This document shows positions 881-26,124 of a stretch of DNA of 26,124 bases, one piece after another. Position numbers and translations under genes: made by a program. The stretch is from Cudoniella acicularis. Lineage: Eukaryota; Ascomycota; Leotiomycetes; Helotiales; Helotiaceae. Below the pieces are notes generated by a model. That model saw only the letters and a program-made list of their open reading frames with translations, was not told the origin of the DNA and did not search any database. Location: positions 1-26,124 of the forward strand of contig JAAMPI010000775.1 of the NCBI GenBank assembly GCA_013054445.1. The letters run 5' to 3'. Positions within the stretch are counted from its first letter, which is position 1, and each line of letters starts with the position of its first letter.

Positions 881-1625
881 AGCGCTTTCGGAGGATCATA
901 TATGCTATACTTACCTAGGCAGTCTTTTTATAAGCCTTCTCTGCCCCTAGTCTCGTATATTAAACATAACGAGATACTATATTATGACTTAGTAATTATT
1001 CTTAGAGATATTGATCGGTTTTTATGTTCTCTGCCTATATTATTGCTTCGTAGGTGTTTGGCTTTCGTCCTTAGAGGGGATACGCGATTAAATAGAATTG
1101 TCTAACAAATTAGCGAGTCGGAAATATTCTTAAATATCCTTAAGCCGCGTTTAGACATTTTAACATATAGAGCTATTTTCTTAGATCAGTGTCTTCGGTT
1201 AGGCGTAGGACGAACATAGACGACTCTATAGCCTAGCGCTGATCGTAGCAATCCGCTACCAGGTGTCCTGACTAGGACTTTAAAATACTATAATCAGCGT
1301 CCTAAATATAGAAATAAATAAAACATTCTAGAAATACCCTAGCTTCTTTCTAAGACTGTTTTTAGATACCGCTTCTAAAAGCCTTAGGCTAACAAGTCTG
1401 CCAACCCGTAGCATCAGGAGTGACCGTTTTTAGCTCCCTAGGAGAGAATCGGGCTCCTAGCCTTTACAATATTTCTTTAAAAGTAGGATATATATACTAT
1501 ATGCTAATACTAAGGTATAAGTCACTACACTATTATCTTTAATACTGTCTCCAAGTTTAGCAATATCTAACGCATAGGTGCTTTATCTTTAGTTTCTGAT
1601 CATAAAAAAGCTATACCAAAACGAG
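881..1625. other. Non-coding or unrecognised RIP sequence
   Basis: AT-rich, RIP-mutated DNA. A 67-codon open frame at 902-1105 (plus) has no recognisable motif and is probably fortuitous. Nothing else is supported. Confidence 0.4.
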
Positions 1626-2970: not shown

Positions 2971-3320
2971 ATGACTTCTAGGAGTCGTATTAGGATGCTA
3001 ACGTACTCCCTAGAATACAAGCCAGGCTTTATTCGCCTTTATCTCTTTAAGACGACATTTCTCGAGTACCTCCTACATCGCTATCATAGTAGTATATATC
3101 TCTTGTAGCAGATTTATTATACGAGTAGAATCTTGCTAATGTCTTACGATATAGAATTCTAGCCACGAATTTTCTATAGTAATTCTCTCTAGCGTCTCTA
3201 GCTACTATCGCTTTTAAAATTCCTCGACTCTCTTAAATAGGTCGTTAATAGAAAAGTCTACTAGGTCTTACGAAGCAAATTACGAGTTAGGAGTTAGGGG
3301 GGCTTCGTACCTAGAGGTGG
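2953..3320 (-). pseudogene. Fragment of a degenerate helical protein gene
   Basis: A minus-strand frame, open except for TAA/TAG, runs from about 3320 down to a TGA at 2955-2953. It encodes acidic and helical segments (RVEEF, LETLERITIENSWLEFYIV, INLLQEIYTTMIAM, EVLEKCRLKEIKANKAWLV). No family is recognised. Its 3' end meets that of the plus-strand frame ending near 2970, giving a convergent arrangement like that at 7 kb and 17 kb. Confidence 0.3.
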
Positions 3321-7083: not shown

Positions 7084-7828
7084 GAGGTTCATTTTTCGTA
7101 TGTTTATAGCTTCGTCTTTTGGCTTATTACGTTCTTAAGTTTTATTAGGCAACTCTTTGTTTTTCGTTAGCCCCTTATATTACTCTAGTTTCCTATATCG
7201 GCTAGCCCGAATAAACTATAAAAAATAGTTAGCGTAGTATAGTACTAATAATCGAGTTTTAACTTACCTAAGCTATTACCTGAAATACAGTTTCCAAATA
7301 AATATATAATCGTGCCCTAGTAGTGACTGCCGTAAGCGACTTCGGAAGCATACGTTAGCGGATAAAGCTAGATAAGAGAGAATTTCAGAAAGTACCTTAT
7401 ATAGCAAATACGGGACTAGATACGGTAACTGTTCCTAGTATAAATAGATGCCCCTAGCCATCAAATTCTCTTTAAATCCTACTGCTTAGAGTTTCTCTAA
7501 ACGGTCGTGACTTTTATCTCCTCGCCTCTATAGTCTCTAATATATTTTTAAGATTTAATCAGTTGAGTTTTAATGATTTTGGCTCTCTTAACGACGTTTT
7601 TACTCTCTATAAGGACATAATCAGTCAACTATATGACTTTATTAATGTCTTCTAAAATTTTGCCTATCTATAGGCTGTTATTTATAACGAAGTCCTTAAA
7701 CGAGCGCTTTGCCGCGTTACGAGGACTATTTCGTCGTAGCTTAGACCCTTGTTTATAGGTCAGATATCGTTATAAAAAATAAAAGGCAATATTATATCTA
7801 TAATTAATAAGATTAGTTACTTATAGAG
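7084..7828. other. Spacer between converging degenerate genes
   Basis: About 745 bases between the 3' ends of the plus-strand gene ending at 7083 and the minus-strand gene ending at 7829. I see no supported frame, repeat or RNA gene in it. Confidence 0.4.
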
Positions 7829-9970
7829 TCATAAGTACTTTTGTCTCTAAACTCGACATAATAGGAACTAGTAGCCTATAATCGACATTCGGGTAAACTG
7901 TCGACATCTTGTCCTTATTAGGTAAGTAGCTATAGTCATTATTAAACTGCTTACCTGTTATAGAACCGTCGAGAAGTTGCTCGGATACTAGTTCGTTTAC
8001 TCAAAGTAATAGGCTTAGAGTTACGTATTATAAGTTCGTATAAATACTAGATATATTTAGGATAGAATCAATCCTTTAATATCCTAACTAGATCTTTTAA
8101 TCCGCTTCGAGACCTTCGTCTCCTTTAAGATCTACTGCTTAACGGTTTCTTTTATGTTATTATACTTACTATATTTAGAAATAACATTTCGATATATCTT
8201 AGCTATAAAGCCGCGCCTTCTCTCCTCTAATTTACGAAGTTGTTCGATGAGTTTGCGGAGCTATTATAGCCGATCCTCGATTAAGATATGCTCAAGTAAC
8301 TTGGCGATTTTATCTTCGAGTTTGATAAGCTTCGAGTACTATACTATTCTATCTAAGGAGAGCTAGCGGAAATTTTCTAAACTCTATAGAACAGTATCTA
8401 GCTATCTAGATTCTATGTTAATAGAATCCCTTAACGAACGTCCGCTAAACCTAGAGCGTGTCTTCCGTTATAATTTGGCCTTAGGACTACTACCAGAAGC
8501 TCCTATATCTTAAGGTGGGTTGACCTGGCTGTCGAGAAGAGTAGTGTCCTTGCCCGCCTTAGGGCGCTTGTATGATATAGCATGGTCATTGACTTCGTTA
8601 TTAGCGATTTTGAACGAGCGCTTAGAGGAGTTTGATAGCCTCTTAGCAGATATGACATCGATGATATTATCGTTAGAGTCATTTGAACTAGTACTCGTGT
8701 CCTTGTTTATAGGCATATACGGTCTAGGTTGATATGCTTTACGTCGGCTCGTAGATTTATCCTTAGGAGCTTTACTAGTAGAGGCTTATAGGGAATTCAA
8801 TAGGGCATCGGTAGCGTCTACGGAATCAAGTAGGGCAGAGGCTAGACGTTTTATATATAAACCTAACATTCTTTTACGTATATATTCGCTGTCTTATATA
8901 CTATCGAAATCGCTACTAACAATTTCGAACTCTAGTAAAGGACTTGGTCTATAGTGACTATCACTAGCAGATAGCTCAGATTTATCTTTAGAATCGATAC
9001 TAGTCAAATCGATAATAGTCATTTAAACATATTTTAATTAGCTTAATCTCTTGAAAGTAGTAAGCTTAACTTGCCTGATTCTTTACGTTTATACTTCTGA
9101 CTATTTGCTTCGTCGTTCGTAGGCTAAGAAGTATCCTTAGCGGTATTAGAACTTAGTAGATAAGATAGCAAGTCCTTTTAGGGCTCTTGATCTAAATCGG
9201 CCGTAGAAACGTCTAGAAGAATGTTAGAGAATACGCGGAAGGTGACGAAAGAGAATTTTACCTGATTGCTTTCCTAAGCTAGGGCGAGTTAGAAGACTCT
9301 TGACTAGGTGGTCTTCAGATAGGCGTTCGGCTGTTAATTAGACTTGGGAAGAGCTTTCTCTTAGCTCTTTCGGAATTTCTCCGCCTAGTAGGTTCGTTAT
9401 AGGGCTATCTATAGCAGATCGGCTATTAGGGAGACTTGTCGAAGCTAGCGTATCTTTAAGAGCTTTCTCCGCTTATTAGTTTGTTATAGGGTTTTCCGTA
9501 ATTTGCCGATCTCTAGCCTAGGCTTCCGTAGTTAGTTGGCCTTTAGAGGGACTCTCTAAGTGTGGTAAAGTTGTTAAAGGCTCCTTTATAAGCGGAGCTT
9601 TAGAGGGTGCTTTTCTAGTAGGCAGAGTAACTATAAGATTCTCCGCTAGTTTTAGGTCTTCTAATAGGCCTTTCAAATATAGTAGAGTTGCTAGTGGCTC
9701 TCTCGTAGGCGGAGCTTTAGAGGGAGCTTCTCTAGTAGGTAGGATAACTATAAGATTCTCCGGAGTAGGTTGGTCTTTAAAGGGGCTTTCTAAAGTTGGC
9801 GGAACTTTAGAGGGGGCTTTTCCTGATAGCGGACACACTATAATAGATGACGGAGCTTGCTGATTTTCAGATAGACTCTCCGTGGTTAGAGATTCTATTG
9901 GTATAGTAGCGGTGGTTACTACTTTCGATTTTGAAGGTCTTAATTATACTCTAGTCTTACGGGNAGCNAT
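7829..9970 (-). pseudogene. Degenerate 713-codon Pro/Ser-repeat and coiled-coil protein gene
   Basis: One minus-strand frame spans 9970 to a TGA at 7831-7829 (714 codons) with only TAA/TAG interruptions. The first codon reads ATN GCT, so an ATG start at 9970-9968 is likely but hidden by an ambiguous base. Residues about 45-150 hold imperfect Pro/Ser/Thr repeats (KAPSKVPPTLESP, REAPSKAPPTREPL, RKAPSKAPLIKEPL, alternating with ENLIVxLPT). The middle is Ser/Asp-rich and basic (STSRRKAYQPRPY, KRLSNSSKRSFK). The C-terminal third is a strong coiled coil (KLEDKIAKLLEHILIEDRL, RKLIEQLRKLEERRRGF). No catalytic motif is seen and I do not recognise it. It converges on the gene at 5317-7083 and could be its partner in a multigene element. 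Confidence 0.5.
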
Positions 9971-9995
9971 GTTATAAGGTNCGNCGAACAGGTAG

Positions 9996-10130
9996 GGATA
10001 GTGATAAAGGTGNTGTTNAATNAGTGATGAAAATAGTGATATAGTGATATGGTGATAAAGGGTGATATGTNATGAAGGGTGATATNTNATNAAGTGATAA
10101 AGGCAGTGATAAAGATAGAAGATTNTATAT
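9996..10130 (+). repeat. GTGATA-type microsatellite with ambiguous bases
   Basis: A run of variants of gtgata, agtgataaag and ggtgatat with several n positions. The ambiguity is probably due to poor base calling or unresolved copies in the repeat. It lies just upstream of the minus-strand gene starting at 9970. Confidence 0.75.
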
Positions 10131-10205
10131 AATGATTAAACTGGCCGAAGTAAACCTCCGGCTCCCTGATACTTATCTCCTAGAATCGAAGTATCTACAA
10201 TCTCC

Positions 10206-10475
10206 GACTTGAGCAGCAGCGCTTAGCCTACCTTTCCGCATGAGAAACACCGGCCAGCTAAGCCTAAACGGGAGGAGGATCAAGGCAGATTCTCAATATC
10301 CCTACTACTCGGCATGAGAATCGCCAGCTAGCTGAAGCAGACGGGACGGAGGTCAAGGTAGATTCCTGGCAGCCCTACTGCTTGGCTTAGGAATCGACAG
10401 CTAGCTAGAACAGGTGTAAGAGGGATCAAGGCAGTTTCCTGGCAGCCCCGCTACTCGGCATGAAAAACACTAGCA
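10206..10475 (+). repeat. 73-bp tandem repeat, about 3.5 units
   Basis: The landmark atcaaggcag/gtcaaggtag recurs at 10279, 10352 and 10425, a period of 73. Each unit also carries a cggcatgag/ttggcttagg block and a cagctagct block. A partial leading unit starts near 10206. The units have diverged mostly by transitions, and CpA/TpG is less depleted here than in the flanking genes. Confidence 0.8.
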
Positions 10476-10601
10476 CCCCTGATATATACCTTCTATTATA
10501 GCTTCGTCACCGTGTATCAGGCAGCAGATCTAGCCTAGCCTGTCTATGATCTACTAACTGTCTGCGTAGTATACGTCAAACGGCTAGAGCGAGACATAGA
10601 A

Positions 10602-10790
10602 GCTTAGCCCCTGATCCGCATAATATGAGCCATCCTTCCGCCGGCGTATTACAAGTCAAGCCGCTATCACACGTTAAAAATAGCTTCTAACGGGGTTTAG
10701 CTCACGATCCGTATACTCTTAGGCCATCCTTCGGCGAGCATGACGACAGTCGAACTACTATCACATACTAAAAGAAAGTTCTAGTAGGAT
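10602..10790 (+). repeat. 93-bp imperfect direct duplication
   Basis: The block beginning gcttagcccctgatccg at 10602 recurs at 10695 as gtttagctcacgatccg. Both contain a gccatccttc core, then a ctatcacac/ctatcacat core. Divergence is high. Confidence 0.65.
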
Positions 10791-11323
10791 TTACCCTAGA
10801 CCTGTCCCTGTCAATGTCCCTAAACCGACGGCTAAGCCATCTTCTATACGTTCTAGGAAACGCCGACTGTCGCGCACCTAGGCGAATATTGGCTAGGCGG
10901 CCTGGTTTATGCTTTTAACGTAGGAATAGAGACGTCATGACTGATGTTAGTCGCGGGATAAAAGATAACTATGATCTTAGTTACGGTTTATAGGGCCGAA
11001 AGATTTTATTTTAGAGCTGACTCTTCCCGTTATTCTCCTCGAAGATCACCAAACACGGGCAGAATCTGATGCCCCTAGATCTCTAGATTCCTAATGTTAT
11101 ACTAAAGCAAGGTGACCAAAAGCAGTAACATCCGGTGGTGGTGACTATTTCCAAGCACGCTCTTATAGTCTCGTGGCTTAGCTTATATCGCGCAGGAAAC
11201 AAGCATCGTCGTAGTATAATTCTTAGCCGGGGTTGACTCTCGAAACATATATATAGGCTCCCTCGTTGACGTCAATGAGTCTATCAGATTAGTGGTCGAT
11301 CTACGCTAGTATAGTACTCTCCC

Positions 11324-11500
11324 TTCCCGATAATATAGATCGAGTATTTAAAGGGAAAGCTAAGAAAGCCTTGCCCAAGAGTGATGACCCGTCCCGTAAG
11401 GAGCTCGAAACGCTCCTTCCCGATAATATAGATCGAGTATTTAAGGGGAAAGCTAAGAAAGCCTTGCCTAAGAGTGATGACCCGTCCCGTGAGGACCGCT
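11324..11500 (+). repeat. 93-bp direct duplication with TATA-like core
   Basis: ttcccgataatatagatcga begins at 11324 and again at 11417. The copies are almost identical through gtatttaa-gggaaagctaag and gagtgatgacccgtcccgt. Each copy has a gtatttaa element. It lies 200-380 bases upstream of the gene starting at 11704, so it could be a duplicated upstream regulatory element. The minus-strand open frame over it is only a reflection of the repeat. Confidence 0.85.
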
Positions 11501-11590
11501 AAAATCATGCCGAGACATAGCGTAGCAATACGTTACGTAACTTATCGTTAGTTATAAGAGGGAAGCTAAAAGCTTTGACTACGTATATAC

Positions 11591-11599
11591 TATATAAGG
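11591..11599 (+). promoter_or_regulatory. Candidate TATA box
   Basis: tatataagg lies 105 bases upstream of the ATG at 11704, downstream of the duplicated 93-bp element. Position and sequence suit a fungal core promoter, but RIP also creates TATA-like strings, so this is tentative. Confidence 0.35.
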
Positions 11600-11703
11600 C
11601 CACCACGTTTGCCAAATGCTTTCCTAGCTTTTATTCTGATTTTTAGTTAATATCACTCCTCGAGTAATTATCACTACCAGATCTACTTAGAACACTTCGT
11701 AGT

Positions 11704-13138
11704 ATGGCCTTCCTTAGCTTATTCTCGACAGACCTAGTATCAGGAGAAACTCTTAAAGATCTGCCTGCCTCTAGTATCTCTACCGAACCGCTTACGGAAT
11801 ACACGTCCTAACAGTAGCAACCTTTAGACAGCCTTTAAATTGGCCTACCAACTAAAAGAGCTACTTCTAGAGAGCTATCGACAGCGGAGAATATACCAAT
11901 TTCTCTATTAGCCTTAGAAATTCTACCTAACGGCCGATTAACTATAAGTAGCCTATCTAGAGGCTACTAACTTATAGAAAGTTTAATAGAGAGCCCTTTA
12001 ATAGCGGAAGATCCTCTAAAAATTCCGGCGGATAAAGGTATTTCAAATAACACTTCAAGTATAGAACTCTCTAACAATTTCTATAGTCGACAGTATAGGC
12101 GTGCCTATACCTAACCTCCGGCTAGGACGAAAACTAAAAACGGTTGTTATCGTAGTAGCCTGGCTCTCTAAACTAGGTTCCGTCGCCCGTAAGACTAAGC
12201 GTATTATTAAAGATCCGACCGAAGAGATTAGTGACTCTAACGAGGGCGATAAGAAATCTAAGAATAAAGATATTATAAATAGACGCGACGAATATTCTAT
12301 TTATAAGAAATATGTTAAGCCGATTTCGTATATATACCCTTATCAGATTTGTAGTTATATACTATATCTCTCCTACGCTAAGATAAAAGACTAGCGCTGT
12401 CCTATATGTTATAAGGACCCTCTCTAAAACATCTTAGACCAATTATCAAAAGACAAGTCTCGATCTAAGAAGACGTTTAGGGAAATAGTTAAGTATGATC
12501 TTATTACTAATAATAACGATATAGGTAAGACCCCTATCTCTATTTCGTATTAATACCGCTAACTATTAGCAGATTCGGAGACTATTATCGTAGATTTCGA
12601 CGAACCTCCGCTTAAGAAGCATAAGAAATCAACCTTGACTATCGATATCCTTATTAAGGCAACCGAAGAAGAGGAGCGAATATAGAGAAGGCAAGTATTT
12701 CGTTTCGTACGTAAGGGTAGTAGGATAAAGATAGCTGATGGCTTCTAGGAGTATTAGAATCAGCTTAGACGACAACGCGTTTGTTTAGTAGCTGTTTAAA
12801 GTGTCATTTTAGGCCGTTAGAGAGGGACTTCTAAGAGTAGCCTCTTTTATCCCTCTAAGGTTCTTCGTAGCCTGATAAACGATAATAAGGCAGAAAAACA
12901 GAAGATAGAAGAGGAATTTCGTGATAGGGTGCTATACTATGATTCGGTAGTCTTACTAGATAGGTATTCGTTATTAGAGGGACGGCGTAAAAGTTTGATA
13001 GAAACTAAGAATTAGATCGACGGCGATAGTCTTTTTAGAGAGGAAGTAGAAGAATAATTAAGGTATAATACGTAGGATCGATTAGCTATATTTAAAAAGA
13101 ATATATACTATTTTGATCGAAGAGTTGATAATTTATAG
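11704..13138 (+). pseudogene. Degenerate gene of unknown function, frameshifted
   Basis: ATG at 11704 opens a Ser/Thr/Leu-rich frame (MAFLSLFSTDLVSGETL, then ENIPISLLALEILPNGRL) running to about 12,150. From about 12,100 a second frame carries on to a TAG at 13136-13138, so a frameshift or lost intron lies at 12,100-12,180. The second part is basic and acidic in turn (KDPTEEISDSNEGDKKSK), and has a small C-x2-C motif (RCPICYKDPL) that could be a remnant zinc-binding hook. It ends with helical charged sequence (KAEKQKIEEEFRDRVLYYD). No family is recognised. All stops in the frame are TAA/TAG. It abuts the inverted-repeat arm at 13170. Confidence 0.45.
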
Positions 13139-13169
13139 TGTTTTAGAATGTCATTTCGTATGTCGACGT

Positions 13170-13203
13170 TGACTTGGCTCGAGCTTCGGCTAAAGAGCCG
13201 TAT
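13170..13203 (+). repeat. Arm of a 34-bp inverted repeat
   Basis: Begins tgacttggctcgagc and ends agagccgtat. Its reverse complement matches 13474-13507 apart from about eight central positions. The two arms enclose 338 bases, the size of a MITE-like element, with no gene inside. No clear target-site duplication was seen. Confidence 0.6.
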
Positions 13204-13473
13204 AGTGGCACCTAGCCTAGGCCCTAGTAAATAAGTCGTAGATCTAGGCTATTTCTAAGGGTCGGGAATAGAAGATATAGAATACTCCCCTTCGGGCTTA
13301 TCTAGACGTGTTTAGTTTAGTATTTAGGGTTATAATAAAGAATTAGCTATAAATTTATCTATAAACTTCGACATTTGGCTACTATATTCATTCGCGTTAT
13401 TTTTATCCGTAAAAGTTCTAATTTATTTTACTATATTTTACGTTAGCCGAGGGCACGTGATATTACCCCTGAC

Positions 13474-13507
13474 AATACGGCTCCTCGGTTAAGCTCGAGC
13501 TAAGTCA
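13474..13507 (-). repeat. Inverted-repeat copy, left end of candidate 6.5-kb element
   Basis: Begins aatacggctcctcgg and ends gctcgagctaagtca. Bases 13474-13500 match the reverse complement of 19903-19929 at 26 of 27 positions, the only difference being a transition. The copy is also the partner of 13170-13203. It may be the left terminal inverted repeat of a segment carrying the 13.76 kb gene, the SET gene and the JmjC-SET gene. Confidence 0.65.
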
Positions 13508-13760
13508 CTATAGATCACGAAATAGCTGATAATAGGATTTCAAATTTTTATACTATTTACCTAACCCGCTACTATACTTCTAAACTCTTAATATAGGCGG
13601 AGTCTATCCTAGCTTAGTATCACGTATAAAGTATCTAACCTTCTTAATAGATAATTCGAAACGAAATATAAAAGCAGTTTATATAAAACTTTAATATGCC
13701 TAAAATAGTAATATAAACTCCGATATATTTATAGTTTAATTATAAAGGAGACTCGTCCTA

Positions 13761-14570
13761 TCAATTGCCTTCTACTTTCCGAATTACGTAAAGCACCTGA
13801 TATACCTCTTTACTAGCGTCCCTCTAATCTTGTTTACCTTTCGTAATCTTATCGAGTATTGATATCGGGATAATTTTAAATCGATGGCCTGCCTACTAGC
13901 CTTATATAAGGTCGCTACTATTATAGTTTATAGAGACTAATATATCTTAAGACTAACAGATACGTGATATTGCCGTATCTCTAAGGCTCTATAAATTCCT
14001 GTCTAGGCCTAACTCTTTTATACTACTATACTCGCCAAACACATACTCTCGGCTAGTCAAGTTGAGTAAGACATATTGTTAGTCCGAAGGAAAAGATTTT
14101 TTAAGAAGCCGAGAGTATTCTACTCGAAATACGTCTGCTTTATCCGAGTCGGATTTTAGGTTCTCTAGGAACTGTTTAGTATAATCACTAAGTGATAGCA
14201 CCTCTATATAGCTTGTGTCGTATAGAGTTTTTGACGCTGATTAATATTCAGGCGATAAGGTGTCGGAATAGTCACTAACACAAACAATTCTTTTATTTAC
14301 CTAAGCTCTAAAGAGATTATCGAAGAGTATCTCTACTAGTACTAGGATATCGCGTTGACTAAGGTAATCTCCGATAGGAGGATAGTCTCCTTTAGGAAAT
14401 CTAGTTCTGATATAGATATCGATAAGTAGTGATAACGGATCCTCTTTAGTATCCTCTTCGGTTTATAGTAAATCCCCTTTAGTATTACCTTCGAGATCAG
14501 CTAGGTAATTTCGAAGCTTCGACTTTATTTCGGTTTCCCTAATGTTCTTTCCGTAAGGAAAATCTTTTCT
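13761..14570 (-). pseudogene. Degenerate conserved fungal protein of unknown function
   Basis: One frame of about 270 codons from near 14570 to a TGA at 13763-13761, with TAA/TAG interruptions only. The N-terminus is charged (GKNIRETEIKSKLRNYLADL). The middle has a GDYPPIGDYLSQRDI motif. The C-terminal part carries LLNLTSREYVFGEYS, a RIC-stop-S segment that would be RICWS, and WAGHRFKI followed by a DW-like region. This order (LxNLTxxEYV, then RICWS, then GxWAGHRF) resembles an uncharacterised family I associate with many fungal genomes, sometimes annotated near F-box proteins. That link is from memory, and the function is unknown. Confidence 0.55.
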
Positions 14571-15797
14571 AATTTAAATTAGTTATATAATAGCATTTTA
14601 TCTGAAGGTCTAGTCTTACTGCTTGCGTATTGGCACTATTAATTGCTATTACAAATGATAGCCTATATATCTATCTAGTAGAATATATCCTAGATTGCCC
14701 TAGGCAAGAGTAGTCAATTGCTATTATCGATCCGGACATATAACCTGCCAATATTGTCCTATAGCTTTGCGAACTAGGGCAGTCAAGCGGATAGTTAAGG
14801 TAAGGTGAGTTGAGTTGAGTTGAGTTAAATAGAGTTGTTATAGCGTAGTATACCTAGAGACATTAAAGGGAAAGATAATTAATATAGATACGTAGGCGGA
14901 TAGCCAGAATAGCCTAGCCAAATGCCCTAAAACGAATAAGTCAGACAAATCTGCAGATAAGCATAAGACGGCCCCTAAAGAGGTAAGGCTATACGCTAGT
15001 AAAATAAAGCTCGACATTTTATAAGAGTATGTTTGAGAAAGCCGGTTTCGGGTACTATAGACTTAGAATATATATAAAGAAGGTACCTATACTCATGTAT
15101 TACCCAAGCCACCACGCGGAAATGCGCTCCTACGGCAGTTTCTTCTAGGTAAGGTAATGGCCAGCCAAGAAAGGTATATAGTATTAGAATCAAGGAAGCC
15201 GGTCCGGGGCTAAGGCATAGAAAGCGGTCGGCCTTGAGTAGAGCCGAATCCTCCGTATGACGACTACTTTAACTGATCTACTATATAGCTAAAGCTTCCT
15301 GTGCCTAGAAGGCACCATGCGGTAGGAGTATACCTCCGAGGGGTGGCTTAGGAAGTGTATAAGTGTGGGTATTTAAGGGCAGATAAGCCTTATAACGGTA
15401 TTCTATATTATCCCTTCGCGTAAAAAGCCTTTTACGGGACAGTTAAACCTTATGTCTCCACTAGTATAGTTGTGTTGATCTATATAGGTTCTTAGCTCTT
15501 TAAAGGGATAAGAATGTCGGATACTTTCCTATGGCATAGCTCCGCCACTATATACCTTTCAACTTCCTCCGTCAGCGTAGCTTTGCCAGTGACGCCGGTC
15601 TGCCTTGCCTTTTATATACTACTTAAACGTCTATTATAACCAGACTGAGTCATGGTGTCTATATATAGGAGGATTCGCCGTACTATCTTAGCTCCTTAGT
15701 CTCGGTTTTATATACCGACCAAGTCATACACGGGACTAGACACGCTATAGCTATATATGCTTCGGAATAGTAGGAAAGTATATACCGGCGAGAGTTA
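14571..15797. other. Spacer with weak coding hints
   Basis: A short plus-strand frame at about 14838-15030 encodes Lys/Asp-rich sequence (NKSDKSADKHKTAPKEVRLY) and could be a 5' exon or a fragment of the SET gene downstream, but no junction is visible. A minus-strand open frame at 14996-15193 has no support. A gtatttaagg TATA-like string lies near 15370. Confidence 0.3.
14806..14826 (+). repeat. TGAGT pentanucleotide microsatellite
   Basis: Four copies of tgagt followed by t. Short and simple, in the spacer between divergently oriented genes. Confidence 0.85.
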
Positions 15798-16735
15798 AAG
15801 CAGAATCACTAGCGGAGCTATATCAATACGGAGGCGAGGGTTATGTCTCGACGGATATATATCTAGGAACACATCTCCTGGTTTTCACTCAAGCCTCTAT
15901 AGGAAGCCTAAAAGAACTCACTATAGGCCGCCTAACAAGCACTACGCTTAGAGAATTTGATGATTTCCTTATAGCCACGCTTATTGACTAAGTGAATATC
16001 CTTCTAATTAGGAATTCTATAGCTTCTAATTATTTATAGGTATACTAGTTACTAACACGAAAATTTGACTTTAATTATCAGCCGAACACTAAAGGGAATG
16101 ATCAAGTCATTGCCATACTACGTTGTTCTATTATCAAATAACAAGATATACCTACGGTAGTCTTATAACTTCTCTAGCTTAATAAATTCACGTAGTTTAT
16201 CGCCTCGTGTTCTAGTACGAAACACGCCTTCGGAATATATCTCCGTAAATATCTTAATATCTATTTACCTGATTGCCCTTTCGAGGTTTTAAACATAGAT
16301 CGGTTTAGGCTAAAGGGCTAGGGTACGGCTATTATTATACGAGAGTTTGTTAAGAAGGGCCAAGATATTAAGTATCTTTAAGGAATAAAGGCTCGTATAG
16401 ATACGAATAAGCAGGAGGCAATAAAGCATAGTAGGCAGGATTTTAGTCTCCTAAAGCTCGACATCGGTACCTATATAATAGTCGGGCCGGCAAGTTTAGT
16501 AAATCATAGCCGCGAATTTAACGCTCGACTTTCGAGAAGAGGGCTATCTATTTAAGTTATTACGGAAGAGGACATCGAGATTAGACAGGAGATTATAATT
16601 TACTACGATAAAGAATACTTTTACCCTAGCGTCGAGGTCCTTAAGAATAGCGAGGAAGAGGAAGTAATAATAGTAGTAAGACTTGAACGGCATAGGAAGT
16701 TATACGGACAGGAGTGGCCTATACGCTCTAGATAA
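15798..16735 (+). pseudogene. SET-domain methyltransferase relic, Suv4-20/SET9-like
   Basis: A plus-strand frame with about ten TAA/TAG stops encodes first a helical segment (TLREFDDFLIATLID) that matches the N-terminal helical part of Suv4-20/SET9 histone H4K20 methyltransferases. Next comes KYLNIYLPDCPFEVLNIDRF, also typical of that family, and then a SET core. In the core, GPASLVNHSREFNARL at 16484-16531 corresponds to the NHxCxxN substrate/AdoMet motif, and EEDIEIRQEIIIYYDKEYF corresponds to the DIxxGEEIT-YYG-YF motif. The key Cys after NHS is Arg and the Gly after YY is Asp, so catalysis is lost even apart from the stops. The expected post-SET Cys cluster is not visible. The start is not certain, and the frame stays open apart from TAA/TAG past 16735. 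Converges on the JmjC-SET gene. The family role is nuclear histone methylation. Confidence 0.75.
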
Positions 16736-16879
16736 CGCTCTGCTTTTAGGATTATAGTAAATTTTGACCTTCTTTCTCTTCTAATTCCTTTCCGTAATAT
16801 AGGAATCTTTATTTAAGAAACTATTATTATTTCGGAGAATAGCGATATATCTTTAACCCTACTCTATCTTTAAACTCCG

Positions 16880-16937
16880 CTTGATCGTACACGGGCTATA
16901 GTCGCAAACTTTACGACTATAGCCGTATACGATCAAG
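16880..16937. terminator. Strong hairpin between converging 3' ends
   Basis: Arms 16880-16904 and 16914-16937 pair over about 24 bases with one C/T difference and one extra G, around a 9-base loop. The left arm begins cttgatcgta. It sits between the end of the plus-strand SET relic and the TGA of the minus-strand JmjC-SET gene at 16942-16940. A 3'-end or insulating role is inference; it could also be a small palindromic insertion. Confidence 0.6.
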
Positions 16938-16939
16938 AT

Positions 16940-19843
16940 TCACACTTAGCCTTATAAGGTCGAACGTCTATTATAGAGATTATATAAACACTCTTTTCCC
17001 TATAAGAAACGCCGTCTATAAAAGACCGTTACTTCGCTATTATACGGTATATCCTGAATTGCGATAAGCATTTGCCTCTACTACCTAGATATCTTTATAA
17101 CGCGGAACTCGACAGAAGGGTCATACGAGTGGTTGACCTTCCTTACCTAATTACCCTTTTCTTTTAGGTAGATCTAGGCGACAGGCTCGTCTCCGAGATC
17201 AGGTCTCCTGAACTCGATAGGCCAGCTATCGTTATAAGTATCAAGAGGTGCGAATTCTCCGACAAGTTCCCCTAGGATTTGACCTTTTTAGTATGTTATA
17301 CCCTCTATACGAACGCCCTGGCCCTTCCCTGCTTCGTTCGTAATACGAGGCTTGTTCTCGGGCAAACATATAGTGATATAATTATATTTTTCTTTATTAT
17401 ATAGATCGTATTGACGATCGGAAAGAGGAACCCAGGCAGGGCTCTATAGCCAGCCCTAAAGCTAACAATCTGGTTTAGACTAGTCGAATTTTCCTACGTT
17501 AAATTCATTCGCCTCTATAATCGGAAACTCCTCTATAAAGGCAGCCAAGTCTTCTATAGGTAACCGGGCGATCGTTTGAGGATCCTTACTCTCCTATTTA
17601 AACTTAGGGACTTCTACGTTAGACCAAACTGATGCTTGGAAGGTCTTCCCTATACGACACATAGGCTATACGAACTTATTAGATTTTAGGAACGAGTGAA
17701 GTAGCTTGATATCTTTGTTAGATAGCTCCTGACATATACGGCCGGATACCTAGAGACTTTCCCCGTCCCTTCGGTTCGGAGGAATAAGGCATAAGAGGCC
17801 GTTAAAACTGTTATATATTCTCTTCTATCGCCGCCCTTCGACAAGGTAATGATATAACTTTATACGATTCGTCTTAGAGTTCTACTACCTAAGGCCATTT
17901 ATAAGGTTTATAATAGCCTCTAGATCTACACGCGTCCGGCCCTCCTTCCCTTTATCGATGATTTCTACTAGCTTAACCTTCGCGAAACGGTCTAAGAACT
18001 CCGTGAGCAATGGTCTTTTCTCTAAGGCACTAATAGCCTATACGATTTGTATAGTAGGAGCCCTACTATTACTATTCTCGAAGAACGGTTTCGATCGATC
18101 TCTCTAGCTATAGATCAGAGAACACAGTTAATAGAAGGCCTGTTTCCTATATACTACCTTAAGGAGGCTGCCTATTTGAGGCGTAACTTAGGCCTTCCTC
18201 GATAGGCTTTCGGTCGGTAAAGCCTTTCTTTTTATCCTAGCAAATTTCGACTAAACGACCGCGAGTTTCTCTAGCTATAAACGTGCCCTTCTGTTTCCTT
18301 AAACCTCGACTAGTAGTCCTTCCTTAGGAAGTCGGAAGTTGGCTTTCGTTATAGTATAAGGGCTATATTTTGTTATATAGAAAAGGTAATCTTAAGGGAT
18401 ATCTAGTAAGGGCCCGTATAAAATATTTATTACTAGGGCGTAATTACGTCCTATATTCATGACCTGATAGATTGTTCCCCGCTCCGTCACTATAGCCTCT
18501 CCTGGTATATAATAGTCGAGAGAATACTCAATTCCCTATTCATCGAGTTTGCTCGGGGGGATAACACGGCCTAGATAGTTAAGGGCTAGGGAACAATACG
18601 CTATTTCTAGGAATTCTTGACGCATGTAGCGCTAAAGTTCTGTCTTATACGCCGGTTTGACAAAAAGCTAGAGTTTGATCTCGCCGTCCCGTAAGAGGTT
18701 TAATAAGCGGAAATCGGCATCTTCGCTATAGTATATAGAAAAGGAGATTCTAGGGCAAATATAAGCATATGTTGTCCTAACTCCGGGAAGATCTCGACCG
18801 CTAATCCGTTCTAGCCTATTCCCTAGGCTTAGTTCTATATCGGAAAAGAAAGGATCCCCGATAATATAGTATATCTTTAGCGGAGGATCTTTTAATACGG
18901 CTTCCTAGGAGTCTTTTAGTTGCTTTCGTGACCAGGTTCCTTTGCTCTAAGAGAATAGCAGGCTAGGTAACCGAACCTCTCGCCTGTCTCCTCTAGCCAC
19001 TTTAACGCACCCTTAATCATCCCGATAGCAAGAGAAGTTTATAGTATAACATTTCCCTAGTTGCCTAAAAGAGGCTTCGTTTAAAGCGAGAGGTGGCAAG
19101 CCTTCGACTATAAGCTTAAAATAGCCTATCTCTTTAACGCTTAGGCCCGAAGAAAATTTCTCGAATTTTGCTTCGTTTAAAGTTTTACTAATATCTTTAT
19201 ACTTGTAGGGAAATGTTAGCGCGGTTTCGTTCTCTAACTAGGGGTGAAGTCGTGCGTTACTTGGTTGAGTTATAAGGCTAGAAGGTTTGGCAGTTGATAT
19301 TGTGAGGGCGAGCTCGTAATAGACAGACTCTTTACTACGTCGCGACGGGATAACATCATAGTCCGAAGATATAGTGGTAGATGCGTGCCCTAATAGTATA
19401 GATCTATCGGTGGCCGCTGATTTTCGCTGTCTACTTTCCGGGATGGCTAGAGACACCAACTCAGTCTCGGACTGACCTAGTGCGGGAGCGCTATATTATA
19501 ACTCGGCCTTAGATACGGCTCTAACATACGTCGTAAACGCGTCGCTTTACGCATGGCCACTATCAGTGAATATGCGTGTGCTAAGCGTCTTCTTGACGCT
19601 CTTTAACTCTACTAATATTTCACTAAAGCACTTGAAGATATCCTATACCTAATCCGGCCGTCCGCTCGGGGCCTCGACACGCACTAAGCGGCGCTGCTTG
19701 CTATGTTTACCGCCGGTAAGAGATTGTCTAATAACGTCGAATACGTCATCTAACTCGTCGAGTCGTTTCTTAAGAGTTATAACTTTCTCCGTCAAGTCTT
19801 TTATCGTAAAATCTTAAAGAAAAGACTTAAATACAAGATTTAT
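16940..19843 (-). pseudogene. JmjC domain fused to pre-SET/SET/post-SET, RIP-inactivated
   Basis: One minus-strand frame runs 967 codons from a probable ATA (former ATG) at 19843-19841 to a TGA at 16942-16940. It has some 35-40 TAA/TAG and no TGA inside. Residues about 1-60 are coiled coil (LTEKVITLKKRLDELDDVFD). Residues about 360-480 match JmjC: TTYAYICPRISFSIYYSED, then LLNLLRDGEIKL-stop-LFVKPAY, VIPPSKLDE-stop-GIEYS, and YYIPGEAIVTERGTIYQVMN. The iron ligands HxE...H appear as Y372-S-E and Y459, a spacing of 87, close to the usual spacing. A helical middle region of about 300 residues follows. Residues about 810-960 hold a Cys/Tyr cluster (QYDLYNKEKYNYITI), GQILGELVGEF, VNHSYDPSVEF at codon 904, EVTVFYRRRF and a CLYNLYN post-SET. 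These domains oxidatively demethylate and methylate histone lysines respectively. TGY-to-TAY and CAY-to-TAY account for the missing Cys and His. Confidence 0.8.
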
Positions 19844-19902
19844 TACGATATAAGGTCACGACGCGTCGATAAGATTAAACCGGCAAGATAAGATAGGGAG
19901 GG

Positions 19903-19929
19903 GCTCGAGCTTAACCGAAGAGCCGTATT
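19903..19929 (+). repeat. Inverted-repeat copy upstream of the JmjC-SET gene
   Basis: Begins gctcgagcttaaccgaag. It matches the reverse complement of 13474-13500 at 26 of 27 bases. It is 60 bases upstream of the inferred start of the JmjC-SET gene, so it is either the right terminal inverted repeat of a 6.46-kb segment or a promoter-linked copy of a dispersed repeat. Confidence 0.65.
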
Positions 19930-20448
19930 TATCGCGGACCCTATAAGAACTAAAACTAGTTAATGCCCGGAAACTCAAATCGGCAAGCTTTAGACGTAAA
20001 AATAAATATAATTAATAATTAACAAACCTACGATCCGTTCTATTCTTTATAACCAAGAGCTATTATCCGACTAAATACTTGATAGTAATTCGTAACTAGG
20101 CTACGGGCGGCACAAATCTGGTCCGTGATTACTAATACGCTAAATGACTTAGGTAGAAGAAAGTTTTTTAGATTATAAAGAAGATTTTTATGTTTAAGAA
20201 TATAAATCATATATTATAATAAAGAAAGGAACTCTACTATATCTTCTAAGATATACTATACGACGGCTCTCTAGGAAACATCAGAAATCCTTATACCAAG
20301 CTTAATAGGACTCCGAGGTCTTCGCGCTATAATGGCCATAGTTGGTCGCCGGTGCCTTAAAGTTAGCGCCTACCTGATCCTGCCTAGAAAAAATAAGATT
20401 AGACGCTGTTTTTTTATAATACGGCTAGTGTGGTTCGTGTCGTATAGA
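19930..20448. other. Spacer without a supported gene
   Basis: RIP-mutated AT-rich sequence between the inverted-repeat copy and the 3' end of the forkhead-retropepsin gene. The run at 20160-20235 is especially A/T-rich. No frame or repeat is supported. Confidence 0.4.
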
Positions 20449-21849
20449 TCACCTGTCTAGAAGAATCATTAGTATCAACTCAGAAGACAATACTAGTATA
20501 CCTATACGCTTTATTTAGAGTTTAGACCGCCGTTCGCGTAAAGTTAGACCTAGCCTCTTTCGTCGTCGTTTCTCAAAATTCACCAGGTCGAAGGCTAGCA
20601 CTATCCTACGCAATTCTTACGCCTTTCTCTCTCGCTAAATATCAAGTAGCTCCTTGTCTCTAATATTCTATAGCGGTTCCTACGTAGACTAGTCTTCGGT
20701 ATAACTATCCTAAAGGAGCAGGTAGTGCGTTCCCCGACCTTCTTACTTCTCTACTAATATACGATCAACAGAATAAAGGTCATCTTCTATGCTTTGACGG
20801 GAGACAGTATCCTTCCAAACTTCATCCTCACTTATCGTCTCGTCTCCTGATTCACCAAGCTCGCACTCTCTAGCCTCCGCAGCCGTTAGCAACTCTTCAG
20901 CTACTAGAGCCGTCTCGTACTCTCCCGTTACGGAGTCCGTGTCAGCCTCAGTTGTAGATATAGGATTGGGAAGCTTGATCAGATTTCCAAGAGGTCCTCG
21001 GATATAGTATATGTGATTTCTAACGCCTCTTAGCAACCTGACCTCTTGAATCCATGCCCTACCTAGCAGAAGGGAAGGTAGCTCGGAAACTACGTATATA
21101 TCGATTGTTGTTTCAACGCTAGCTACCTGGATACTGAATCGACAATATTGACTAATTAGAATACTACGGTTCTCGACTCTTATTCTTATGGTGCCGCTAG
21201 AATGCAGAGATAAGCCGAGTTTGTCGGCTATCGACCGAGGAAGAAGGTTGTGTATGCTATCTCTATCAATCTTCACTCGTCCTAGCTCTACCGTCCCTTT
21301 TCTTAATACTATCACCGCTCTGGTGTATAAAGAGCCTCTCCTGAAATTGTCTTAAGGTATTTGTCGGAGAACGGTAATTGCGCTGCTTGCGGCATCGGAA
21401 CCTGTCTTATTCCTACCCTCGGCCTTAGTAGGTTGGTCATCTTCGGTATAATGACACCTGTCACCCAAGGATTAGGGAACTTGAGACTCTCGTCTAAGGG
21501 GAGGATAACACAGCCCGCGAAGTTCAGCCTCCATTTCTGGCCGGATTGCCTATCGGCATAGGACTCCCGGAAGGCGATGATTGTTAGCAATCGTAAACCT
21601 AGGCTACTGTCTCTCAGAATCGTGTAGCAGAACATTCCGAATCTTATTTTTTATGTATTGGTATTGCGGATACTTTTCAGCAAGCCATTCATAAACTTCG
21701 CAGATGCTCATTTGTGAACTTTGAGACCTCTACAAGCACGTGGCGACTAAGCGGATGCCTTCCCCAGGTGCTAGGATCGTCCTGGTGGCTGGCCTGACCG
21801 AATTATGTTTAAGCGTACGAGATGTACTTCTAGATGAAACAGAATCCAT
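20449..21849 (-). pseudogene. Forkhead-like domain fused to retropepsin-like domain
   Basis: ATG at 21849-21847 opens a frame of 467 codons ending with TGA at 20451-20449, interrupted by about 13 TAA/TAG (the first five at codons 40, 82, 100, 126 and 166). Residues about 30-112 fit a forkhead winged helix: IRLVATCL-stop-RSQSSQ, MSICEVYEWLAEKYPQY (helix 1-2), IKNKIRNVLLHDSER (recognition-helix region), PRFTIAN, then PGVLCR-stop-AIRPEMEAE, where Trp is expected at the stop. Residues about 178-300 fit a retropepsin-like fold: VKID195RDSIHNLLPRSIADKL (catalytic Asp with RDS in place of the usual G-S/T context), IDIYVV, and LLLGRAWI at 260-267. The tail is acidic, then basic (FEKRRRKRLGL). Codons 167-368 are uninterrupted. 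A transcription-factor-like DNA-binding domain with a domesticated protease is inferred. A plus-strand 66-codon and a minus-strand 107-codon open frame here are overlapping shadows. Confidence 0.65.
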
Positions 21850-22787
21850 ACTGGAATTGGTGGTTGGATTTTGTTAGAGGGCTGATATCTGCGATGCGTA
21901 ATTTGAGGAAAGATAATAGTCGTGATACGACAATTGTGGAATTTGGCTCTTTCTAAGGGGAGAGAGCGTCTATTTATGCGATATCAGCGATCAGGACTTG
22001 TAAATAATCCTTCTCTTGTCTTCTTGGATCTTGAAGACGTGCCAAATTTAGAGCAGAGTTCTCTCTTAATTTGGTGGCAGATTTGGGTTCCCGGCATGCT
22101 GGGGCCAATTCATCACCACGTCAGCCGAAGTGGGGCACGGGGCTCAAATCAAGCCAGGGTGCAGAAACAGGGTGTAGAAACAGGGTGTAGAACAAGGTGC
22201 TGGAGGGGCATAATGCGTAATAGGACTAGGAAACAATCAATCAACGCCTGACACAAGTGTTAGTAAGTCACGTTATTTGATGACAGCAAGATGTCTGGAT
22301 TGATTAATGACCTTATTACAATATCACTAAGATGAAAAAGTTCTAATCCAATGACATGCACTAAATTTACATACCATTGATCTACAAGGATAATCAAGAA
22401 TAGAAGTAGGTGCCAAAATGGGATCCCTACGGTTGCAAGCATCAGATGCCAGTTTTAGCTCCCTCCCTTTCTTCTTCGCGTTTTTGGATGATCGATTTCA
22501 GGTCCTATAATTGTAATCACGGTACTCATCTGCTGGTGCCAATTTTAGCTCCTCATGGCCACAGCTTGCGGATCTGATCTCGCTTTGCAAGTCAAGATCA
22601 GCTGTAGCACAATCACAATGCGGACGAGGCCATGAAAATCCCTAATGGACACGATGACAATGACTATAAGCCAATTGATACTAACTAATGAATAATCCTT
22701 AGCGTTAAGAAACCTACCCCGAAAAAAGAAAAAAAGAACCCGTAAATGCCTTCAGAAGCCTGCCTGGGGGCGTTGATTATCCCGACT
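21850..22787. other. Intergenic, largely non-RIP sequence
   Basis: Base composition is closer to normal. It holds the minisatellite at 22156-22203. A ttttagctcc block preceded by tgcca recurs at about 22447-22463 and 22537-22552. A 109-codon plus-strand open frame at 21922-22251 runs through the minisatellite, and I do not regard it as a gene. Two short minus-strand open frames here also lack support. Confidence 0.4.
22156..22203 (+). repeat. Short minisatellite, plus orientation
   Basis: Three to four units of about 12 bases of the type acagggtgtaga and aacaaggtgctgg. The same unit family occurs in the opposite orientation at 25167-25226, on the other side of the transporter gene. Confidence 0.75.
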
Positions 22788-24688
22788 TTACCGATAACGA
22801 AGACGCTGAAGTGAACTCTCATCCACAGTCGGCCTTTTCTTCTCACTGTTATACCTAAATCCCTGCTCCGTCTGCAACTTCCTCTCCAAACTAATCTCCC
22901 TCGTCCATACCATGCTCGCAATAAACGCTACCCCAGCCAGCACACACATAATACACCACACCATCCTTAAGCTCTTAATATAAGCCTTAATCACCACCTC
23001 CTTTATCACCCCTTCCTCCCCAATATTGCTCCACGCTTTTACGACCTGCACGAACGAACTCGTATCCCGAGACCACTCATCTGCAAATGTCGAGTATGTG
23101 GTAGCGAGGATTTTCTTCTTTAAGACATTCTGGAAGATGACGCCGGAGATAGCGACACCGAGCGTTTGCCCGAAGGCCCGGAAAAAACTATATATAGCGC
23201 CGGCAAAAGGCAGGTCGGCGTTAGAGGCCGAGGCTTGGGCGGCGAAGCCTTGCGCACTAAAGAGCATGCCGAGGCCGATGCCAGCGACGAGGGAGAGGAA
23301 GATCCAGGAGGGAATATTAGTTGATTGGTTGAGGCAGATAAGGAGGCCCATGCCGAGGGTTGTGAGGAACCATCCGATCTAGAGTGAGGGCCTGTAGTGA
23401 CCGTCTTGGTGATTACAAGACCGATGACGACGGCAGCGGGTGCGACGGTGAAGGTGAAGGGAAAGATAGCGATGGCGGAGGTGATGGGCGAGTAGTTTTT
23501 CGCGACCTCGAAGTAGAGGGGCATATAGTAGAGGAGCGACCAAACGATTAGGCCTTGGACTAGGGTACCGATGTAGGCGACAATTGCGGTTGGGCTGTTG
23601 AAGAGGGTGCGGCGTATGAGTGGTTCGGTAGATATATAGACAGAATATATGATAAAACCGATGAGGCCGAAGATGCCAAGGATAAGGGGAACAAGAGTTC
23701 GCTATAAGGACCAGTCGTACATTACACCGCCCTACAAATGTTAAATTAATGCTTTGAATAGAGCGCGGATGGTAGACTGACCCATGTTACTAGAACGAGA
23801 CAACTTGTCAGCGCAGCGACGAAGAGGAAAGATCCAAACCAGTCGAAGGTGCGTAATTTAGTCCTGATTGACCCTTCCTTGATATATAGCCTGAGACAAA
23901 TAGGGATTCCTATAGCAGCGATCACACAGAATAGAATGTTAAGCCAGAAAATCCACCGCCAGGTGACTTTCTCCGCTAGAGCGCCACCGATAACTAGACC
24001 GATGACAGATCCAATGGCCTACTAGAGTGAAATCACAGACATGTATTTACCTCGCTCTCGAAGAGTAACCATATCAGTAATAACAACATAGGTAAGAGCG
24101 ACAAGGCCCCCGCCGCCGATACCTTGTACACATCTTCCCACAAGTAATAGGGACACATTATTAGCAATCGATGCGATGATAGTGCCTATAGTGAAAAATA
24201 ACAAGGCTGCTAGAAGGACCGGCTTTCGACCGATGATGTGCGAGAAGGATGCCCATGAAGGTTAAAAGACTGTCGAGCATCTGTGGTTCTATAAGTACTT
24301 ATACTTGTGAAGTAAGAGGGTTGCCTCTAGCTTACAAGAGAAACGAAGTCCCTACCCAGAAAGCTTAGATAGTAGTGGTGCCTTTCAAATCTGTAGCTAT
24401 TATCTTGAAGTTAATTAGTATAGTATCAGGATGGCTTGAGTAGTCTCTTACAGGTAATGCTACTGAGAGAATAGTGGCATCAATAGCACATATAAGATTA
24501 AGGAGTGCCAAAGTCCCAAATGTTCCATAGAACCTCCATCCCCTCTTTACCGAAACAGGTTGCTCCTCCATTTCCATTTCGGAAATATCGCCAGCTTGTA
24601 TAGGTTCTAAAGGGGTGTGCAAGAGTTTCGAGCTTCGTATAGGCAGGTAAGGACTTTGGAACGAAGTAGCCGGCGGTGGCTGTTGTAT
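22788..24688 (-). pseudogene. DHA2-type MFS multidrug transporter, RIP-broken
   Basis: Plasma-membrane drug:H+ antiporter family with 14 helices. Exons are 24688-24452, 24403-24336, 24280-23782 and 23731-22788. The introns 24451-24404 (48 bases, branch site tactaat), 24335-24281 (55) and 23781-23732 (50) have GT..AG ends. The protein would be about 582 aa. Signatures seen: NLICAIDATILSVALP (helix 1), FSHIIGRKPVLL (motif A), VGRCVQGIGGGGLVALTYV, then AIGSVIGLVIGGALAEKVTW and RWIFWLNI (motif C and next helix). The stops TAA 24365, TAA 24262, TAG 24022 and 24019, TAG 23702 and TAG 23379 all replace expected Gln or Trp. One base is missing near 23401: KTG becomes KTV and the frame shifts. Adding that base makes the coding length divisible by three. 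The likely start at 24688-24686 is ATA, explained by RIP of ATG. An in-frame ATG at 24577-24575 is an alternative. Confidence 0.88.
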
Positions 24689-25504
24689 TTAGCTTTAAAC
24701 TCGACAGATTTTAGCAAACAAGGGAGGAAAGCACAATAGTGTTACGCAGAAGAGAAGGATACTTGTGATCGCTTGTAGTGTTGATGCGATTGCGCTTAGT
24801 TATATAATCTGGCGGAAAGCTTTTCCTTTATTAGACCCCCTCGGGTGACGGCGATATATTCTCCATAATAATCTAAGGCAGACAGAGATCCTAAATACGG
24901 CTCCTTGTTACTAATAACTGTTGATTTCCGCATTGTCAATTGCTTAGGTATAACAAGGACTACTTTCAGTCAGTGGGACCCGGATTGTGAAGAGTGTGGG
25001 GCCAGGAAATAAGCTTGCACTATTGATAGCTCCCATTCCCTCACTTTTGTGGGCTTTTGTTGTGTTCGGTAGTTAACTTAACCTCTAATATAGCTTACGT
25101 GACGTTGAGAACTAAGCGCGTGGCGACTAGCGAATCAAATGTGTTTGTCTCCAATTTCTCTACTAGCCTCTACACCCTTGTTCTGCACCCTTGTTCTGCA
25201 CCTTGTTCTGCACCTTGTCTCTGCCCCGCCTTTCTGCCCTAGTCTGGGAAGGATTAAAAGTTCGGATGAAATTATGTTCGAACCATCCGTCTCCTTTGCC
25301 TCAAATTGATGAAGTAGGGTCCGGATTTGCAACTGATATCACCGATAAGCACTAGGTATAGACTGCATATCTTGCAAGCGTTGGTGTAAGAGTGCTATGC
25401 TACAAAATTTGTTATACCTCGAGTACTAATTTATATTTAAAGCTGTCTAAAGACCTTATTGAGAATCTTATTCTAGTGATTTCTAAGCAGCATCTGTTCT
25501 AAAA
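24689..25504. other. Intergenic region
   Basis: Between the 5' end of the transporter gene and the secreted-protein gene on opposite strands. Contains the minus-orientation minisatellite at 25167-25226. The short open frames at 25057-25242 (plus) and 25135-25332 (minus) run through the minisatellite and are not supported as genes. Promoters of both divergent genes should be here, but no clear TATA box was identified. Confidence 0.4.
25167..25226 (-). repeat. Short minisatellite, minus orientation
   Basis: Four to five units of 12-13 bases of the type ttgttctgcacc on the plus strand (ggtgcagaacaa on the minus strand). Same family as 22156-22203 but inverted, so the pair flanks the transporter gene at about 3 kb separation. 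Confidence 0.8.
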
Positions 25505-26026
25505 ATGGTCATTATTCGCCTTCCTTTCCTTTGGCTCTACAGCCTTACCAATGCCTTTCTGGGAACTCCTGTACCATCGATATCGTCGCCTAGCCCTACC
25601 AGCCAGCCGCATTACACATTCGACGAACTCTACAACCTCCAAGTCAAATTCTTCGATAATTTCATCTACCTAGCAGACGTCACTCAAGCAAAGTCTATCA
25701 ATTCAACGCTGCTGGCAGAGGATATACAAGGGCGGATTGACATCACAAGGACATTTGACGGCCGGGAGCTCAACACGGAGTATCTCTTTAGGCTTTTTGC
25801 AAACCTCGTAGCAGATCCTCATTCTATCAGCTTGTTAGGAGTCCTAATTTCATATGAAATCTTGCATTTCGCTGCTAATGAATACGTCACTTCGGCTGCT
25901 ACTCGATTCATGTTCAATTTCACCAGCCTCGGTCTCATTATACCTATTGAGATTGATAGTTGGAATACTTGGAATAAAGCTAGGCAGGTTACGCAGTATA
26001 ATAGGAGCTTCAAGTATTGGCAATAG
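25505..26026 (+). CDS. Intact secreted protein of unknown function, 173 aa
   Basis: ATG at 25505 to TAG at 26024-26026, with no internal stops and normal CpA/TpG content, so it escaped RIP. The N-terminus (MVIIRLPFLWLYSLTNAFLG) fits a signal peptide with a likely cut near residue 17-22. A Pro/Ser linker follows (PSISSPSPTSQP), then a domain with NFIYLADV, QAKSINSTLLAEDIQGRIDI, DGRELNTEYLFRLFANL and a C-terminal SWNTWNKARQV. N-glycosylation sequons occur at NST, NFT and NRS. There are almost no cysteines, unlike typical small cysteine-rich effectors. The pattern recalls uncharacterised secreted fungal proteins (from memory); I cannot name a function. The next base run (26027-26124) shows nothing. 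Confidence 0.75.
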   Translation: MVIIRLPFLWLYSLTNAFLGTPVPSISSPSPTSQPHYTFDELYNLQVKFFDNFIYLADVTQAKSINSTLLAEDIQGRIDITRTFDGRELNTEYLFRLFANLVADPHSISLLGVLISYEILHFAANEYVTSAATRFMFNFTSLGLIIPIEIDSWNTWNKARQVTQYNRSFKYWQ

Positions 26027-26124
26027 ACGGTTGGTTATATAATTGCCTTAAGGTATTCTCTTAACTTTATATCTATGTTTAGAATTTGTCTAAGTCTAAC
26101 AGTGCCCCTTTACTCAACGCTACT

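Follow-up and report, generated by a model that had tools for sequence, protein, structure and literature searches.

Decayed copies of a JmjC-SET (SET-8 family) gene in large dispersed repeat units of Cudoniella acicularis

The contig JAAMPI010000775.1 of Cudoniella acicularis (26,124 nucleotides; hereafter the window, and C1588 when compared with other contigs) carries on its minus strand, from 19843 down to 16940, a degraded gene for a protein with a JmjC domain followed by a SET domain. The gene belongs to the SET-8 (JmjC-SET) family, and its in-frame stops are of the type produced by repeat-induced point mutation (RIP). We consider, with a probability of about 0.8, that this frame is a SET-8 family gene copy which RIP has inactivated and which lies in a large dispersed helotialean repeat unit. 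An earlier note, made from the DNA letters alone, had described at this position one frame of about 967 codons, kept over 2.9 kb and broken by RIP-type stops. This observation is confirmed, with the strand, which was not given there, as an addition, and its interpretation is partly supported. That the gene is multi-copy and lies inside large repeat units goes beyond that note.

The frame contains 39 stops in 968 codons (27 TAG, 11 TAA and no TGA), compared with 60, 62, 82, 73 and 85 stops in the remaining five frames of 16940..19843. With the stops masked as X, its translation matched two Pfam domains: SET (residues 889-942; 27.2 bits against a cut-off of 22.4; E 5.3e-6) and JmjC (residues 360-471; 23.9 bits against 24; E 5.9e-5). 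One plus-strand frame was also scanned against Pfam and gave no match. The masked frame aligned over 100% of its length with the best matching protein, P0001, an intact homologue of 968 aa with 70% identity. The tallies of stop columns and of C>T and G>A changes covered seven of the nine copies in the genome, with C1609 and C305 omitted. In them, one or more of eight intact homologues had Gln or Trp at the column of 253 of 265 stops, compared with that of 622 of 6016 other codons. From the copy on contig C810 to the window copy we counted 123 C>T changes, 80 of them before A, and 100 G>A changes, 60 of them following T; the changes in the opposite direction (61 A>G and 42 T>C) are present because C810 is itself RIP-altered. 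RIP-type dinucleotide values extended across the window to about 21 kb and were weaker beyond, and the values of a host flank (C445 1-5000) were not RIP-like. The in-frame stops are thus RIP-type, and a chance open frame, against which the earlier note had also argued, is ruled out by the stop counts, the domain matches, the homologue alignment and the nature of the stops. Because nearly all the stops are TAG or TAA, they could be read as sense codons of an alternative genetic code, which would make the gene live. This reading was rejected as having practically no probability, given the spectrum of C>T before A, the RIP-type indices that are found in the repeats and absent from the host flank, and two stop-free host frames (891 aa and 701 aa) in the same genome. 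Every full-length copy in this genome has at least 19 in-frame stops, and the copies make no full protein.

Intact relatives indicate that the frame encoded one chain. Because each protein search scored no more than the 7990 to 7993 candidates with the most words in common, the lists of homologues are not complete. The masked frame retrieved 20 proteins; according to precomputed annotation, 13 of them have both JmjC and SET, and the full-length Helotiales-type homologues have both domains in single chains of 895-997 aa. The named sources (Tricladium varicosporioides, Cadophora species and Cudoniella acicularis) are all Helotiales. When nine homologues were rescanned with Pfam, eight were above both cut-offs; the exception, the C. 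acicularis protein P0020, maps along contig C167 and is a gene model stitched from MFS, protease-like and JmjC-SET pieces, and therefore its public name is misleading. A first profile search added one protein from Mollisiaceae and others from the Sordariales genera Apodospora, Rhypophila and Podospora, and a second gave 82 proteins, 76 with both domains, including Neurospora crassa SET-8 (P0074). Two adjacent genes, one for JmjC and one for SET, that share a frame by chance would agree with the existence of shorter homologues with JmjC and no SET (P0006 and P0016) and of others with SET and no JmjC (P0017-P0019). However, full-length single-chain homologues occur in many species, the stops along the frame are of RIP type, the linker between the domains is alignable from Helotiales as far as Sordariales, and SET-8 as a query matches the window copy in its JmjC, linker and SET pieces; two genes are therefore highly improbable and this explanation was also rejected. 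Neither of the outcomes that the earlier note had named beforehand as refuting it, the lack of a domain match or homologues with two separate genes, occurred. In P0017, P0018 and P0019 the N-terminal helix, the linker and SET are kept and the JmjC part is missing, by real losses or gene-model artefacts.

The single chain is a member of a family that has been described, although the earlier note knew of no named family with JmjC before SET. In its part on this family, a 2008 survey counts one JmjC-SET gene in N. crassa, one in Aspergillus fumigatus, two in Magnaporthe grisea and none in Fusarium graminearum, likens the SET domain to that of SET3/4, doubts its activity and reports an Arg substitution in the SET catalytic motif (PMC2474616). 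A survey of SET proteins in fungi published in 2022, in the portion concerned, excludes JmjC-SET as ungroupable (PMC9692433), and the two surveys mean that the architecture was already known. The N. crassa protein is listed as NCU01973 in an excerpt of another paper (PMC8875772), and a passage on diatoms presents a protein with both domains in the reverse order, SET-JmjC (PMC3145265). The Helotiales-type proteins share with N. crassa SET-8 and its family the domain order, a colinear N-terminal helix, a KDM4-like JmjC part, the linker, a four-Cys cluster and the C-terminal SET; the gene here differs from the known family in being multi-copy, repeat-borne and RIP-killed.

The features of the gene and of the repeat around it are as follows.

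16940..19843, minus strand: RIP-degraded JmjC-SET (SET-8 family) pseudogene, single frame of about 967 codons (stop counts, Pfam, homologue alignment)
19715..19804, minus strand: N-terminal helix, predicted coiled coil, codons about 14-43 (alignment of intact homologues; helix 2-30 in the model of P0004)
18314..19249, minus strand: KDM4-type JmjN-JmjC catalytic module, codons about 199-510 (approximate boundaries from a homologue model)
18431-18766, minus strand: Pfam JmjC match of the X-masked frame
17534..18187, minus strand: helical linker from JmjC to SET, codons about 553-770 (homologue alignment, model)
17357..17413, minus strand: pre-SET Cys cluster, with RIP changes in this copy; C-x2-C ... 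C-x-C in homologues (alignment)
16994..17356, minus strand: SET domain, ASH1/NSD-like, with NHS-x-DPS motif (Pfam match 17018-17179, PDB sequence match)
16958..16993, minus strand: post-SET Cys cluster (homologue alignment)
1..26124, no strand: dispersed repeat unit covering the whole window, which is the entire contig (C810 matches throughout with small gaps; C1097, C1609 and C167 in part; about 81-92% identity)

The linker is probably PF28402, which was placed through truncated homologues that keep this family. The Cys-rich region had been put about 350 residues past JmjC, and the cluster begins about 340 residues after the JmjC match; the four core Cys of homologues read as Tyr in the window copy, the change that RIP would produce.

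Residues were counted in 104 aligned rows minus P0020, P0027, P0028, P0029 and P0030, which left a Helotiales-type group defined by sequence (21 rows) and 78 other rows. The JmjC part has the KDM4-type JmjN-JmjC fold, and in the filled rows the iron ligands HxE/D...H are nearly invariant (first His 94/94, Glu or Asp 93/94, second His 96/96), as are the 2-oxoglutarate-binding Lys (94/94), Tyr (93/93) and Asn (93/95). The pattern C-x5-H plus C-x3-C, which matches the KDM4 zinc site, was found with Cys in 95/97, His in 92/97 and the two further Cys in 96/96 and 98/98. The protein thus resembles KDM4/JMJD2 in fold, Fe(II) and 2-oxoglutarate residues and this pattern, and differs from it in that SET follows JmjC and that the nine rescanned homologues have no PHD, Tudor or JmjN Pfam match. 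The structural comparison used a model built from 98 sequences and mainly its residues 188-501; a model from 19 sequences was poor (mean predicted local distance difference test score 47), and its PDB matches were not used.

In contrast to the JmjC part, the SET part differs at its active site. Its best PDB sequence match was ASH1L (6.4e-9), and NSD3 and others were also matched; a likeness to Suv4-20/Set9 was considered and was not borne out by these matches, which favour ASH1L/NSD. Unlike the ASH1/NSD H3K36 methyltransferases, the Helotiales-type proteins have Cys facing the Tyr of ELTYDY, and no AWS match was found in the homologues rescanned. This C-terminal SET-motif Tyr is the usual active-site residue of SET methyltransferases; every one of the 18 filled Helotiales-type rows has Cys at this position, in a register taken from the ASH1L alignment near a motif where the aligner shifts between chains, and the residue expected of an active SET is therefore absent. 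The earlier reading of an eraser and a writer in one chain is supported for its JmjC half only: homologues keep the residues of that part, whereas the Helotiales-type rows lack the usual Tyr of SET. The Tyr is present in 66 of the 78 other rows. Compared with those rows, the Helotiales-type forms are shorter and retain the Cys of NHSC and the post-SET Cys; the other rows lack the first post-SET Cys, and the six most frequent letters there at the Cys of NHSC do not include Cys. At the Asn of NH, taken as the reported Arg site although its exact position was not seen, the Helotiales-type rows have N in 16 and D in 2, and the others R in 18 and N in 30 of 78. The Arg feature varies within the family and for this reason was not treated as defining.

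The gene appears to have been under selection before it decayed. RIP cannot cause transversions, and between C1588 and the copy on C147 these numbered 113, 87 and 145 at the three codon positions (whole gene, p 6.5e-4; linker, p 0.017); the third-position excess is what past selection on a gene would leave. Several observations weigh against our reading. Taken part by part, the same transversions gave p 0.40 for the N-terminal part, 0.16 for JmjC and 0.077 for SET. The His of the KDM4-like zinc site is replaced by Gln or Asp in 5 of the 19 filled Helotiales-type rows, and one Helotiales-type row has Lys at the HxE position. The JmjC match of the window is 0.1 bit below the Pfam cut-off, and the same stretch scored 28.9 bits, above the cut-off, in the genome-wide scan. 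Finally, neither the full extent of a unit nor a mobilising enzyme was found in the parts of the units that were fetched.

A genome search with the masked protein placed the gene on nine contigs, with every copy decayed and carrying many in-frame stops. Two of the copies (C949 and C305) are partial, that of C1097 is cut by the contig end and that of C1609 is in two pieces. Five contigs, C1588, C810, C1097, C1609 and C167 (family 1), have long DNA around the gene in common at about 81-92% identity, and this unit covers at least 21.8 to 56.2 kb of C810 when all partners are counted. The other four, C147, C445, C949 and C305 (family 2), belong to a separate unit, of which at least 27 kb is common to C147 and C445, and the units thus measure at least about 27-34 kb. 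Across the two families, little DNA beyond the gene itself (65-69%) and some short stretches is alignable. In a tree of eight of the nine copies and 26 homologues (midpoint-rooted for drawing only, with several copies flagged for odd letter make-up), the two groups of copies were separate lineages, one with P0001-P0003 and the other with Tricladium copy b and P0017. One approximate end of a family-2 unit lies near 5.3 kb of C445, beside DNA not common to the other fetched stretches, and comparison with C147 revealed no clear target-site repeat there. No transposase or integrase Pfam family was found in 30 selected frame pieces, which cover six frames of parts of the units in part.

The N. crassa SET-8 query found only the decayed copies and three JmjC-only places in the genome; no intact SET-8 gene was seen in the assembly, where an intron-split or unassembled gene could be overlooked. 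No relatives of P0001 were found in viral contigs. The literature searches gave no title or abstract with JmjC-SET on mobile elements, on Starships or as multi-copy cargo of dispersed units. What is new here is that the JmjC-SET gene was found in this genome only as decayed copies, within large dispersed repeat units that form two lineages.

A rival explanation, to which we give somewhat less than even odds, is that an ordinary host SET-8 paralogue was caught in repeats or segmental duplications, so that RIP was collateral and the gene never served the unit. SET-8 relatives are present in numerous named fungi, and several of them lie on very long contigs, as an ordinary host gene would. In addition, the window contains at about 22788-24396 (minus strand), in its less RIP-altered part, an MFS transporter pseudogene (MFS_1, 5.6e-27) with copies on ten contigs, six of which (one weak) have no JmjC-SET match, and the cargo is therefore mixed or modular. 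On the other hand, both of the lineages, so different in their remaining DNA, carry the gene together with DUF3723, and T. varicosporioides has two divergent intact copies (P0004 and P0010), each recorded with a contig of 521878 bases.

DUF3723 (E 2.8e-63 for the piece on C147) also bears on whether the units are Starship-type giant transposons with JmjC-SET as cargo. According to the relevant part of a published account, it is among the genes prevalent in Starships (PMC12134995). The domain was found on at least five of the nine JmjC-SET contigs, among at least 25 DUF3723 contigs in the genome, and on the remaining four a contig end or a truncation of the gene comes ahead of the place of DUF3723. 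The size of the units and their nature as large, dispersed and cargo-bearing units of Pezizomycotina also agree with Starships. Nevertheless, of the 26 matches to the captain (DUF3435) in the genome none is on the nine JmjC-SET contigs, where contig ends cut the units, and no end of a unit could be fixed by target-site repeats; we therefore regard a Starship origin as rather unlikely.

For the intact ancestral protein of about 968 aa (coiled coil, full KDM4-type JmjN-JmjC, helical linker, Cys cluster and ASH1/NSD-like SET), analogy with KDM4 suggests a function to which we give roughly even odds. The protein would be a demethylase of trimethyl-lysine at H3 K9 and/or K36, and its SET would mainly dock or act as a weak or altered methyltransferase. 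The JmjC part would remove methyl groups from H3K9me3 and/or H3K36me3 with Fe(II) and 2-oxoglutarate, SET may dock on the H3 tail or the nucleosome or methylate weakly or in an altered way, and the coiled coil may serve dimerisation. H3K36 is a target that KDM4 and ASH1/NSD have in common. In the Helotiales-type proteins, a KDM4-like module that keeps its catalytic residues is joined to a SET with a different active site, and this makes the role of the fusion testable with intact proteins.

A mobile unit that carries a demethylase against heterochromatin is possible and unproven. In its full form, which we consider improbable, mobile units of Helotiales would have captured SET-8 as an anti-silencing factor, and the KDM4-type eraser, guided by the SET relic and the coiled coil, would strip H3K9me3 (and H3K36me3) so that the unit stays expressed and mobile, with the host answering by RIP and no intact host SET-8 left beside the units. 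If units do resist heterochromatin in this manner, they would be a case of a histone eraser carried by a transposon in a fungus capable of RIP.

Other features were seen around the gene. Directly downstream, on the opposite strand (window about 16121-16939, plus), is a second RIP-degraded SET-domain gene, whose C810 copy matches Pfam SET (1.6e-4) and which was seen on no contigs other than the five of family 1. Immediately beyond the 3′ end of the JmjC-SET gene, 16880-16937 is palindrome-like, and its matches in C810, C1097 and C1609 are also inverted; it is possibly a terminator-like hairpin. In window 20671-22065 (minus), a frame resembles forkhead weakly (8.2e-4, below cut-off) and is followed by a putative retropepsin-like domain, judged by resemblance and with no match. 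Window 6066-6264 is an array of 15-base units (a 5-residue Ala/Lys-rich repeat) within a long low-stop frame.

Elsewhere in the family-1 unit, C810 39990-40979 (minus) is a frame with few stops in which a RING/PHD-like Cys-His cluster was discerned by eye and which had no Pfam match, and C810 25750-26117 is a near-palindromic array of direct and inverted subrepeats that is also present in C1609 and C167. The family-2 unit contains a 2EXR frame (L029:1784-2819, minus; 1.8e-8) and a DUF7730-like frame (L029:6175-7168, minus; 5e-6, just under the cut-off).
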